Assembly (NCBI RefSeq): GCF_001431405.1
Contig: NZ_LDJL01000009.1
Location: forward strand, 62,001-126,000
Length of the DNA stretch: 64,000 nt
Direction: 5' to 3'
Source: Pseudoxanthomonas dokdonensis
GTDB taxonomy: Bacteria; Pseudomonadota; Gammaproteobacteria; Xanthomonadales; Xanthomonadaceae
Shown here: piece after piece, positions 6,560 to 37,271 of the stretch
How positions within the stretch are numbered: the stretch's first letter is position 1
Layout of the letters: each line of letters begins with the position of its first letter
Notes under the pieces: model-generated
What the model was told of the DNA's origin: nothing
The model's database searches: none
What the model saw: only the letters and a program-made list of their open reading frames with translations
Program-made: the position numbers and the translations under genes

Positions 6560-7351
6560 GTGGTCAAACCACTGCCTCGCCTGCGGTTGCAAGGCTTCAA
6601 CAACCTCACCAAGGCGCTGAGCTTCAACATCTATGACGTCTGCTACGCCGTCTCCGAGGACGAACGCCAGCGGTACATCGAATACATCGACGAGGAATAC
6701 AACGCCGATCGCCTGACCCAGATCCTGACGGATGTGGCCGAGATCATTGGCGCCAACATCCTCAACATCGCCCGCCAGGACTACGATCCGCAGGGCGCGT
6801 CGGTGACGATCCTGATCTCCGAGGAGCCGGTGATCGACAAGTCCCAGGCCAAGGGCGTCATCTCCGACGCGGTGGTCGCGCACATGGACAAGTCGCACAT
6901 CACCGTGCACACCTATCCGGAAACCCATCCGGACAACGGCATCGCCACCTTCCGCGCCGACATCGACGTCGCCACCTGCGGGGTGATTTCGCCGTTGAAG
7001 GCGTTGAACTACCTGATCGAGAGCTTCGAGTCGGACATCGTGGTCATGGACTACCGCGTGCGCGGCTTCACCCGCGACGTGAAGGGCAAGAAGCACTACA
7101 TCGATCACAAGATCAATTCGATCCAGGACTACCTGGCCAAGAACGTGCGCAGCCGCTACGAGATGCTCGACGTCAACGTCTACCAGGAAAACATCTTCCA
7201 CACCAAGATGCACCTGCAGGACTTCGACCTGGACAAGTACCTGTTCGAGGAAAAGGCCCGCAACCTGTCGTTCAAGGAACGGATGAAGGTCGAGGCCCGG
7301 CTCAAGCGTGAGATCGAAGAGCTCTACCACGGCCGCAACCTGGCCGACTGA
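6560..7351 (+). CDS. speD: S-adenosylmethionine decarboxylase proenzyme
   Basis: SpeD decarboxylates S-adenosylmethionine to supply aminopropyl groups for spermidine. It is the long E. coli-type proenzyme (263 aa). Self-cleavage should occur between Lys111 and Ser112 in [13 protein letters not shown], with Ser112 becoming the pyruvoyl group, the same position as in E. coli. The start is a GTG at 6560 with AAGAGGG nine bases upstream; the frame is open back to 6377, but that part has no family match. No spermidine synthase gene is adjacent. Confidence 0.93.
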
Positions 7352-7423
7352 GCTCGGCCGCGGGCCGGGTGCCGGTTACACGGGATTCGGCCAGGCGCCG
7401 CTACACTGGCGGCACATCATCCA

Positions 7424-7503
7424 GGTGGGACGGCCCACCGGCAGCAGCCGCTGCCAACACCACCGACGGCGGTCCGGAATGCAGATTCCGGGCCGCTTTT
7501 TTT
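7424..7503 (+). promoter_or_regulatory. Guanidine-II (mini-ykkC) riboswitch with overlapping intrinsic terminator
   Basis: Two hairpins each end in an ACGG tetraloop, the hallmark of the guanidine-II class. Hairpin 1 pairs 7424-7429 with 7434-7439 around loop 7430-7433. Hairpin 2 pairs 7462-7465 with 7470-7473 around loop 7466-7469. The linker forms its own stem (7440-7445 with 7450-7455). A 12-bp stem (7469-7480 with 7485-7496, one G-U pair, GCAG loop) followed by seven T (7497-7503) is a strong terminator, and its 5' arm uses the last loop base and the 3' arm of hairpin 2. Ligand-stabilised hairpin 2 would therefore weaken the terminator. The next gene is an SMR guanidinium exporter, as expected for this RNA. 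The alternative-pairing mechanism is inference. Confidence 0.9.
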
Positions 7504-7523
7504 GTTCATCCGAGGAAATCATC

Positions 7524-7847
7524 ATGGCCTGGATCTACCTGCTGCTGGCCGGTGCGTTCGAAATCTGCTTCGCCATCGGCCTCAAATACACCGAAGGATT
7601 CACCCGTCTGTGGCCCAGCGTGCTGACCGCGCTGGCCGCGGCCATCAGCCTGTGGCTGCTGACCCAGGCGCTGAGGGTGATACCGGTCGGTACCGCCTAC
7701 GCGATCTGGACCGGGATTGGCGCGGTCGGCGTGGCGACCCTGGGCATCGTGCTGTTTGCCGAAAGCGCCTCGCCGCTGCGGCTGGCCTGCATTGCCTTGA
7801 TCGTGGCCGGGGTGATCGGGCTCAAGCTGGCGACCCCGGGCGGGTAA
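7524..7847 (+). CDS. sugE: SMR-family guanidinium exporter (SugE/Gdx)
   Basis: A 107-aa small multidrug resistance protein with four hydrophobic helices. Glu13 in the first helix is the conserved coupling carboxylate, and the [12 protein letters not shown] loop is the Gdx/SugE pattern rather than the EmrE pattern. Gdx exporters exchange guanidinium for protons across the inner membrane. The start follows a GAGGAA site (7512-7517). The guanidine-II riboswitch immediately upstream strongly supports guanidinium as the substrate and makes induction by guanidine likely. Confidence 0.93.
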
Positions 7848-7950: not shown

Positions 7951-8595
7951 CTACAGCCGGTAAGCGATGCCCTTCATGAGCTTGGAGGCCAGCGTCATCA
8001 GCCCGGGAATCGGCGCCGGCAGCACCCGCGCGCCGGCCTGTTCGGCGTGCTCGGCATGGCGGGCTTCATCGGCTTTCATCACGCTGATGATTTCACGGCT
8101 GCGCAGATCGGCGGGCGGTAGCGTTTCCAGGTGTTCGTCCAGGTGCGCCTCGACCTGGTGTTCGGTCTCGACCACGAAGCCCAGGCTCCAGTCGTCGCCG
8201 CGCAGCGCCGCCACGGCACCCAGCGCGTAGCTGCTGGCATACCAGAGCGGGTTGAACAGGCTGGGGCGGCTGTCCAGTTCATCCAGGCGGTCAGCGCACC
8301 AGGCCAGATGGTCGGTTTCCTCCTGCGCCGCCGCCAGCAGGTGGGCGCGGGTCTGTTCGTCACGGGCCACCGCGGCCTGTCCGAAGTACAGGCCCTGCGC
8401 GCAGATCTCGCCGACGTGGTTGATCCGCATCAGCCCGGCGGCATGGCGGCGCTCGCCCGGCGTCAGCTCGACCTCCGGGGTATCGCCGGCCGGGTTGGCG
8501 CGCAGCGCAGGCGGGCGGCCGAACACGGTTTCCAGCGCACGCTGGCTTTCGTTCAGCAAATGATCGAGCGGGGAGTACTGGCGGACACGCGACAT
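7951..8595 (-). CDS. coq7: Ubiquinone biosynthesis hydroxylase Coq7 (demethoxyubiquinone hydroxylase)
   Basis: Coq7 is a di-iron monooxygenase for the late C-6 ring hydroxylation in ubiquinone synthesis, acting at the inner membrane. The 214-aa protein has paired carboxylate/His motifs: INHVGEICAQ, QEETDHLAWC and KADEARHAEHA. The ATG at 8595 begins MSRVRQYSPLD; the longer frame to 8715 adds a sequence unlike the family. Xanthomonads use Coq7 where E. coli uses UbiF. Confidence 0.92.
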   Translation of the reverse strand: MSRVRQYSPLDHLLNESQRALETVFGRPPALRANPAGDTPEVELTPGERRHAAGLMRINHVGEICAQGLYFGQAAVARDEQTRAHLLAAAQEETDHLAWCADRLDELDSRPSLFNPLWYASSYALGAVAALRGDDWSLGFVVETEHQVEAHLDEHLETLPPADLRSREIISVMKADEARHAEHAEQAGARVLPAPIPGLMTLASKLMKGIAYRL

Positions 8596-8747
8596 GGCAG
8601 GGCCTTGGAACGGGAAAAAAGCGGCGGAAGCGCTGCAATTCCAGCACAATGCGCGTCCCGCGACGGCTATTTTCCCTTGCCGGGCCCGCAAACGCCACGG
8701 CGGCCGCGGGGCCACGCCGGCCTGCGGCCGATTTCGCAGCGATGGAC

Positions 8748-9712: not shown

Positions 9713-9787
9713 AGCCCCGTCGCCAAGCGGTAAGGCACCTGACTCTGACTCAGGCATTCGGAGGTTCGAATCCTTCCGGGGCTGCCA
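9713..9787 (+). tRNA. tRNA-Gln (anticodon CTG)
   Basis: A full cloverleaf is visible: acceptor AGCCCCG pairs with CGGGGCT (ends at 9783); the D arm is GCC/GGC around AAGCGGTAA; the anticodon stem CCTGA/TCAGG surrounds loop CTCTGAC, giving anticodon CTG; the T arm has GGAGG-TTCGAAT-CCTTC. The discriminator G and an encoded CCA follow at 9784-9787. No integrase or att-like repeat is seen next to it. Confidence 0.95.
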
Positions 9788-36350: not shown

Positions 36351-37271
36351 TCAGGCACAGGCCGTGCGAGTGCGTACGGCGGCGCTTGCCGCCAGCCGCG
36401 CCGCCAGTTGCCTGGCCAGTGCGTGTGCGGCGGCCCCGGCATGATCGAGAAAAAGAGAGGGCTCGATCAGTTCCAGTTCCAGCAGTCGTGGCGTGCCATC
36501 GCTGGCCTCCAGCAGGTCGACGCGGGCATAGGCCAGGGGCTCCTCCAGTTGCAACAGCCGGCTGGCCGCTGCCAGCGCGTGTTCAGCCAGGCTCCGTTGT
36601 ACCGGACTGGCATTGCTGAGGGCAATGCGTTCCGGCAGGGGGTGATCTACCTGCCCCAGCCGGGCCTCCTTGCGCAGTGCGTGGCTGAATTCCCCGCCCA
36701 GGTAGACCAGGGCGGTTTCGCCCTGCAGATCGACCGAGGCCAGGTACGGCTGCAACAATGCGGAGCGCTGCTGGTCGAGCAGGCCGGCCAGATGGTTGCT
36801 GGCCGCAAACAGCTGGCCCGGCGAGTAGCGGACGGCATCTTCGGCGCCCGCGCCAATGCAGGGCTTGACCACGAATTCGCCTGCGGGCTGGGTTGCCAGC
36901 CATGCCTCGAGCACCGGCAGGGCCGCTTCGTCAGGCTCGACAAAACGACTCGAGATCACCGGCACGCCCATCGCCGCGAGATCCGCCAGATAGTGCTTGT
37001 CGCTGTTCCAGCGCAGCACCGCCAGCGGGTTCAGCAACAGGCAGTGCTGCTGGATCTGGTCACACCAGGCCAGGAATTCCGGCAACCGGCGGGTGTAATC
37101 CCAGGTCGAGCGCAACAGCACCGCATCGAAGCCGCGCCAACTGATGGTGGGGTCGTCCCAGGCCAGCGCGCGCGTCGGGATGCCGAGTGCCTGGCAGGCG
37201 GCCAGCAGCGGCGGCAAATCGGGGTCGTGGCCGGTGGCGGCAATGGCGGTGGCAATGGCGAGTGTTGGCAT
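36351..37271 (-). CDS. ATP-grasp domain protein (RimK/glutathione synthetase-like)
   Basis: A 306-aa ATP-grasp ligase. The N-terminal part has LRSTWDYTRRLPEF; the ATP-binding core has FVVKPCIGAGAEDAVR, LLQPYLASVDLQGE and the metal-binding LLELELIEPSLFL. The family joins a carboxylate to an amine or thiol using ATP; the closest named types are cycloserine-pathway DcsG-like and glutathione-synthetase-like proteins, but the substrate is unknown. I take the ATG at 37271; an upstream extension to 37358 has no homology. It is a single gene after etfBA. Confidence 0.75.
   Translation of the reverse strand: MPTLAIATAIAATGHDPDLPPLLAACQALGIPTRALAWDDPTISWRGFDAVLLRSTWDYTRRLPEFLAWCDQIQQHCLLLNPLAVLRWNSDKHYLADLAAMGVPVISSRFVEPDEAALPVLEAWLATQPAGEFVVKPCIGAGAEDAVRYSPGQLFAASNHLAGLLDQQRSALLQPYLASVDLQGETALVYLGGEFSHALRKEARLGQVDHPLPERIALSNASPVQRSLAEHALAAASRLLQLEEPLAYARVDLLEASDGTPRLLELELIEPSLFLDHAGAAAHALARQLAARLAASAAVRTRTACA

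Follow-up and report, generated by a model that had tools for sequence, protein, structure and literature searches.

Guanidine-II (mini-ykkC, RF01068) is described in the accessible text of PMC5486947 as the smallest guanidine riboswitch; its two hairpins, joined by a linker mostly of at least 13 nt, form the guanidine pockets through a loop-loop contact in which the closing G-C pair of one hairpin is contacted by the loop of the other. The accessible parts of a 2022 paper call it 'this exclusively translational riboswitch class' (PMC9561414), those of a 2025 review describe it as translational (PMC12186494), and those of two further sources as translational or proposed to be translational (PMC9094411, PMC10907184). 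Terminators are used elsewhere, as far as the accessible parts of the respective papers go: in guanidine-IV a loop-loop contact, one of whose loops lies in the terminator stem, blocks terminator closure so that guanidine gives readthrough (PMC12186494, PMC7736828); guanidine-I (ykkC) is a transcriptional ON switch in which guanidine binding sequesters part of the terminator (PMC5486947); and in the HMP-PP (thiS) riboswitch the aptamer lies almost wholly in the terminator stem, and the ligand must act before that stem is complete (PMC7266159). The accessible parts of the papers within the scope of our literature search, which did not extend to Sherlock 2017, Weinberg 2007 and Focht 2023, mention neither a terminator-coupled guanidine-II RNA nor a xanthomonad example, and none of the former was seen in the accessible parts of PMC2864571, PMC9481103, PMC9788540 and PMC6429828 either; it is possible that terminators were already mentioned in the founding papers (Sherlock 2017; Weinberg 2007).

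Here we describe a leader from Pseudoxanthomonas dokdonensis that, by analogy with the known class, is quite likely a terminator-coupled switch of guanidine-II type between speD and gdx, in which guanidine would lock P1 to P2 and let transcription reach gdx. The stretch of DNA analysed (the window) comprises 64,000 nt of assembly GCF_001431405.1 (contig NZ_LDJL01000009.1, positions 62,001-126,000, forward strand). In window coordinates, the locus contains:

6578-7351 (start approximate), plus strand: speD, adenosylmethionine decarboxylase, upstream of the leader on the same strand (TIGR03331, 466 bits)
7402-7407, plus strand: candidate -10 element TACACT, 22 nt 5' of P1 (sequence, relatives)
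7424-7439, plus strand: P1 hairpin GGTGGG-ACGG-CCCACC (sequence reading, folding, 82 aligned leaders)
7440-7455, plus strand: linker hairpin GGCAGC-AGCC-GCTGCC (sequence reading, folding)
7462-7473, plus strand: P2 hairpin ACCG-ACGG-CGGT, 4 bp, presumed antiterminator (sequence, folding, relatives)
7469-7496, plus strand: intrinsic terminator stem-loop GCGGTCCGGAAT-GCAG-ATTCCGGGCCGC, 12 bp with a 4-nt loop (sequence, terminator scan, folding)
7497-7503, plus strand: T7 tract of the terminator (sequence, terminator scan)
7512-7516, plus strand: likely ribosome-binding site GAGGA, 3' of the terminator (sequence)
7524-7847, plus strand: gdx/sugE, SMR-family exporter gene (NCBIfam NF008512 above cut-off; Pfam PF00893)
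7951-8715 (start approximate), minus strand: coq7, convergent downstream neighbour (NF033656)

A sequence-only reading of this DNA had already pointed to the two ACGG hairpins, the linker hairpin and the 12-bp stem with its seven T, sharing bases 7469-7473 with P2, and all of these were exact to the base. The last of the four P2 loop nucleotides enters the first terminator pair, and the next four pairs take up the whole P2 3' arm. The same reading had P2 and the terminator as mutually exclusive; sequence, folding and relatives agree for the lower five base pairs (7469-7473/7492-7496), which compete with P2, whereas the upper seven (7474-7480/7485-7491) stay free. The 12-bp stem contains a single U.G wobble (T7473.G7492), and the terminator scan returned 13 pairs followed by a T run, the GC-rich stem abutting the U-tract directly as in an intrinsic terminator. 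The start codon of gdx is at 7524-7526, and the proposed identity of the gene is borne out by 133.6 bits against the NCBIfam SugE model (cut-off 126). The assignment of the DNA to a xanthomonad fits as well: Luteimonas mephitis is the closest named organism among the matches listed, with 85% identity in Gdx. The 89-nt leader folds with -47.6 kcal/mol (z = -5.67), and none of 200 shuffled sequences was as stable. The two-hairpin pattern has a single match in the 3.55-Mb genome, and the reversed control has none. GGGACGRCCC has a second match in the window, at 37150-37159 on the minus strand. This copy falls within an ORF and was rejected as a switch; inspection by eye of 37050-37260 revealed no partner ACGR hairpin for it, and at least two matches occurred in 9 of 100 shuffles. 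Further along the window, beyond rplM, rpsI and a tRNA (9713-9784), lies a 2OG-Fe dioxygenase gene (PF10014, 9881-10711).

With guanidine-II the leader shares two GC-rich ACGR hairpins closed by G-C, a linker of more than 13 nt, the position upstream of gdx/sugE and a presumed ON response. It differs in having a P2 stem of CCG/CGG where GGG/CCC is usual, in its presumed output, a terminator that overlaps P2 and not the ribosome site, in being missed by the Rfam model and in its position behind speD. The likeness to guanidine-IV is in the predicted loop-loop contact that keeps a terminator from closing and in the predicted readthrough; unlike there, P2 is a hairpin of its own that competes for the lower 5' arm of the terminator, and the loops are ACGR. 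Guanidine-I has an unrelated aptamer, and no such family is among the Rfam matches of the window. The HMP-PP switch likewise overlaps its terminator stem with its aptamer; it has another ligand, and here one arm of P2 is shared.

Within the genus, two ACGR hairpins with an overlapping terminator stem were found at 30 of 30 gdx loci, taken as the best Gdx-similarity match of each genome (36 of the 38 genomes searched had one). Across the family, 79 of 297 genomes, belonging to 14 of the 54 genera sampled, carry the two-hairpin pattern (reversed-pattern control: 16 of 297 genomes, counted by hand from the table). Our alignment comprises 82 leaders, of which Gdx similarity contributed 36, the pattern 45 and the covariance model described below 1; counts over 81 leaders leave out L111, L122, L140 and L124, which repeat other loci, and L113, a chance match without gdx. 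Behind 79 of the 81, gdx starts from residue 1; of the other two, L160 has residues 63-104 only and L132 has no gdx within 460 nt. The linker between P1 and P2 measures 22 nt in the window (7440-7461) and about 21-31 nt across the 82 leaders. In these, 98.4% of P1 cells are paired, the P1 loop starts with ACG in 82/82 and is ACGA or ACGG in 81 (ACGT once), the P2 loop is ACGG or ACGA throughout, and both loop-closing pairs (columns 6-11 and 64-69) are G-C in every leader. P2 reads CCG-ACGR-CGG without exception in these 82; for the 45 taken by the pattern this was a condition of selection, and for 36 others it was not. The ACGR hairpins, the G-C loop closure, a linker of at least 13 nt and the downstream gdx of guanidine-II are all present; as to sequence, P1 agrees with the class, and a P2 resembling P1 is absent. 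The linker hairpin has 98.3% of cells paired, with both sides changing in all five scored pairs, and the terminator 98.5%, with six doubly changed pairs. In 14 of the 81 leaders, eight of them from one clade, the T-tract is poor (fewer than 5 T in 8), and termination may be weak there. In one clade (L097-L107 and L110) the tract is often reduced, for example to TTTCGCG. There, GGCCCGGGC, which lies past the terminator and ahead of the start codon, could bind the terminator 3' arm (CCGGGCC) once this is free, giving perhaps a third competing hairpin.

Paired changes bear on whether P2 is more than a by-product of the terminator. P1, linker hairpin and P2 together have 92.4% of cells paired and nine doubly changed pairs over the 82 leaders, with at most four in slid registers. 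P2 alone reaches 81.5%, a value lowered by the two outermost pairs, which are missing from many leaders. The three inner pairs of P2 are invariant and were selected for by the pattern search, and therefore carry little weight. The fourth, outer pair (columns 61-72) is A-U in 52 leaders, G-C in 29 and G-U in one, and is never broken; restricting the count to the 36 leaders that the pattern did not select leaves 29 with A-U and seven with G-C. The shared base, U or C, faces a G in the terminator in 80 of 82 leaders. Since this G tolerates both, the terminator does not force the P2 5' base to change from A to G, yet this base keeps step with its partner in 81 of 82 leaders. A Gdx tree with 76 rows requires at least nine changes of the A-U/G-C state, five of them forced by well-supported branches. 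Covariation in P2, together with the pairing in the terminator, indicates that both pairings of the same arm are maintained. The comparative evidence favours a working device, P2 staying paired through repeated double changes that the terminator does not call for.

The overlap sets these leaders apart from ordinary guanidine-II leaders. When a stem of 6 bp or more, 5 or more T in 8 and a 5' arm overlapping P2 were demanded of both sets alike, an overlapping terminator was found in 67 of 81 variant leaders versus none of 82 parsed RF01068 leaders; at 4 T of 8 the counts were 81 of 81 and 2 of 82. In the two exceptions the P2 3' arm pairs with a GGAG stretch that resembles a ribosome site. The RF01068 set consisted of 87 fetched loci (30 from the family and 57 class and phylum samples, not all upstream of gdx), five of which (L227, L238, L239, L245 and L272) had no hairpin pair that the parser could read. 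In the family, RF01068 is found in 69 of 297 genomes, and both forms occur together in two, where 18.4 would be expected if they were independent (relatedness uncorrected). Among the 79 pattern-bearing genomes of this one family, only those two have an RF01068 match, one of them below cut-off and both at other genes, which amounts to a blind spot of Rfam. In one (G065) the ordinary form, matching below cut-off, is at a second gdx; in the other (G276) it precedes two genes, one of the urea-carboxylase family (probably guanidine carboxylase) and one for allophanate hydrolase, which are followed directly by the variant leader and gdx. This G276 cluster (L214, C1:1441400-1449400) thus contains two guanidine-II forms, its order on one strand being UAAP1, UAAP2, ordinary guanidine-II, urea-carboxylase-family gene, allophanate hydrolase, variant, gdx. 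Among the species of one genus (g42), ordinary guanidine-II precedes a distant gdx at L216 and L217, and the variant lies behind speD at L112 and L114-L116; this genus is good material for the order of events.

The Rfam guanidine-II covariance search had been named beforehand as a test, and it went against a simple assignment: nothing in the window or the whole genome exceeded the cut-off of 32 bits. The best weak alignment (18.1 bits, 7388-7437) took P1 for P2 and is thus in the wrong register; being the sole match in the window and below threshold, it was rejected as proof of guanidine-II. In a scan of 20 loci up to E = 3, RF01068 marked none of 14 terminator-coupled relatives, neither of two Stenotrophomonas leaders and not the window locus; L016 and L039 were above and L066 below cut-off. 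According to the alignment, the miss is likely due to P2 being CCG-ACGR-CGG where the model has GGG-ACGR-CCC. By Rfam score, then, the variant is a non-member of RF01068, and by its loops, closing pairs, linker and gene it would work like one. Neither guanidine-IV nor guanidine-I is among the Rfam matches of the window up to E = 10, in an Rfam copy that possibly holds no guanidine-IV model. A terminator-coupled covariance model of structure and sequence (R1), built on 35 leaders including that of the window, gave 81.4 bits at the window locus, with the next match in the same genome at 16.0 bits. Under strict filters, this model run on 369 genomes of the class had strong matches in the family (f1) only (4 genomes, E of at most 1.7e-8; the next at 5.7e-4). 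Spread beyond the family was rejected; 17 other genomes outside it had matches at E of at most 0.1, and the seven such loci checked (L195-L201) have no gdx.

In Stenotrophomonas, 75 of 81 genomes match the terminator-coupled model. Leaders of the S. maltophilia type keep P1, the linker hairpin and the terminator and have lost the ACGR-closed P2. Among 20 parsed Stenotrophomonas leaders (35 were given to the parser), P2 is intact by pattern in eight, has one G.U pair in L326 and is disrupted in 11. It reads ACCGACCCACGG, or a letter off, without an ACGR tetraloop in L003, L004, L005, L008, L009 (about 1369-1476) and L329-L334; in L315-L320 it is intact. Four distinct Gdx rows of the S. maltophilia type nest inside the variant on the Gdx tree. 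The genus thus offers natural P2-disrupted versions, and with them a natural test of the role of P2.

The variant also has a usual genomic place: in 79 of its 81 loci the leader has speD on the upstream side. Around ordinary guanidine-II, speD is absent both from 34 stretches of the family and from 57 of the class and phylum samples, most of which reach 1.5 kb to either side. Convergent coq7 follows in 56 of the 81, 20 of which are stretches of only about 550 nt. At L088 and L137 speD was not found in the fetched stretch; the genome of L137 (G276) has it about 10 kb off. We also fetched 30 speD loci from genomes with the ordinary form (28), with both forms (G276) or without a gdx match (G033). 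None of these stretches, one of which ends at speD, has gdx after speD; convergent coq7 follows in 27 of 30 and a terminator-like stem in 23 of 30. This fits gdx having moved into the speD-coq7 gap, with the switch taking over the terminator that may have stood there. Capture of the very same speD hairpin finds no support in the sequences, as the stems differ over the 30 loci and only the place agrees. When Gdx proteins were labelled by leader on a tree, the variant needed three changes (33.7 in shuffles), and variant plus Stenotrophomonas against the rest needed two; with 105 columns, identical proteins being used once, this tree is too small to settle one versus two origins.

In the window the gap between speD and P1 is 72 nt and holds the candidate -10 element. 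Across the relatives, 34 of 80 leaders have a TANNNT at a distance of 14-45 nt on the 5' side of P1, versus 36 of 647 control windows from largely coding DNA that lies 200-1100 nt further 5' (L088, with too little upstream sequence, was left out). A scan for the sigma-70 consensus found no promoter at the window leader. Comparison by eye also showed that many relatives have, after the stop codon of speD, a stretch similar to GGTTACAYSSGGTTCGG (window 7374-7391), perhaps part of a promoter. The leader starts within 30 nt of the speD stop in 19 of 78 cases (L115, misparsed with an impossible gap of -374, was dropped), speD ending 6-29 nt before P1 in these relatives. A stop so near P1 leaves little room for a promoter of its own, so guanidine may control readthrough of the speD mRNA there; the controlled transcript is then probably the speD mRNA itself.

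Folding of the growing window RNA without ligand outlines the competition. The weakest P2 pair has a probability of 0.33-0.40 until the RNA ends at 7492 (0.34 at that point), which drops to 0.19 at 7493 and 0.006 at 7494. In these folds, made without polymerase footprint or kinetics, the upper seven terminator pairs form alongside P2, and P2 is lost as 7493-7494 emerge; at some RNA lengths a competing P2 register appears. Medians over the 82 leaders are -5.9 kcal/mol for P2, -23.0 for the full terminator and -9.5 for the terminator remaining under P2; the window has -3.1, -22.4 and -10.6 kcal/mol, with a 5-nt gap. In the predicted folds the gap from the truncated stem to the end of the 3' arm is 5-7 nt in 71 of 82 leaders and 0-4 nt in the other 11. 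As P2 has only 4 bp and is weak in the window, the lock would depend on the energy of the ligand. When 7418-7530 is folded, the structure of lowest energy (frequency 0.11) has the ribosome site paired to the T-tract, and the centroid has it open; the pairing is weak and involves CGAGGAA (7498-7517 in all). It makes an added translational layer on the readthrough RNA possible. The ribosome site was unpaired with P2 in the folds made.

In the mechanism that we propose, RNA polymerase would first transcribe P1, followed by the linker hairpin and P2. In the absence of guanidine P2 would be weak, and the emerging terminator 3' arm would pair first with the free upper 5' arm, then displace the P2 3' arm and close the stem onto the U-tract, stopping transcription before gdx. 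With guanidine, the two ACGG loops would kiss and hold two guanidinium ions, whose binding is cooperative in guanidine-II, so that P2 keeps its 3' arm. The terminator hairpin would not be abolished; its truncated stem would stand about 5 nt off the U-tract, and polymerase would read on into the guanidine exporter gene. Guanidine as the ligand, the kissing loops and the ON response are here carried over from the known guanidine-II class.

This mechanism has to be weighed against the terminator being the ordinary 3' end of the speD transcript, with a translational gdx switch and an overlap with P2 that has no regulatory meaning. Such a reading would account for speD upstream in 79 of 81 variant loci and for the terminator-like stem that follows it in 23 of 30 loci without gdx there, and it agrees with the literature, which in its accessible parts calls guanidine-II translational, and with the weak pairing of ribosome site and T-tract. 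A free-standing terminator, however, would not need the P2 3' arm in its base, and the overlap recurs in 81 of 81 leaders at 4 T of 8, with paired changes in both P2 and the terminator. Moreover, G276 keeps the element though its speD is about 10 kb away, and P2 was not paired with the ribosome site in the folds made. We regard this alternative as unlikely.

It is quite improbable that the two hairpins control the terminator by sensing a ligand other than guanidine or by binding a protein. The departure of the P2 stem from the guanidine-II consensus would be in keeping with that, but all 82 leaders have ACG at the start of both loops and G-C as both closing pairs, at positions that make the guanidine-pocket contacts in the accessible text of PMC5486947; the downstream gene scores as SugE, and in G276 the variant leader adjoins probable guanidine-degradation genes. 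A decaying guanidine-II, in which the terminator keeps gdx always low and P2 is a relic, could explain why P2 is weak in the window and lost in S. maltophilia-type leaders; the covarying P2 pair, however, is kept in 82 of 82 leaders despite at least nine changes of state, and such decay is very improbable. A terminator-coupled switch that would respond to guanidine remains the reading that we favour.

A wider account, which we offer tentatively as a quite possible one, is that guanidine-II has a second, transcriptional branch. Its origin would be the arrival of gdx between speD and coq7, upon which the switch would have captured the terminator of speD and P2 would have been rewritten to share its 3' arm with it, so that guanidine decides on run-on into the exporter gene, in some species of the speD mRNA. 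The branch would extend to about 14 of 54 sampled genera of one family and be invisible to the current Rfam model. If true, the switch would show how a hairpin belonging to an aptamer can be recast so that it also serves as half of a terminator, and it would allow a purified-transcription assay for the smallest guanidine riboswitch; a conserved terminator-coupled branch, if true, would overturn the view of guanidine-II as exclusively translational.
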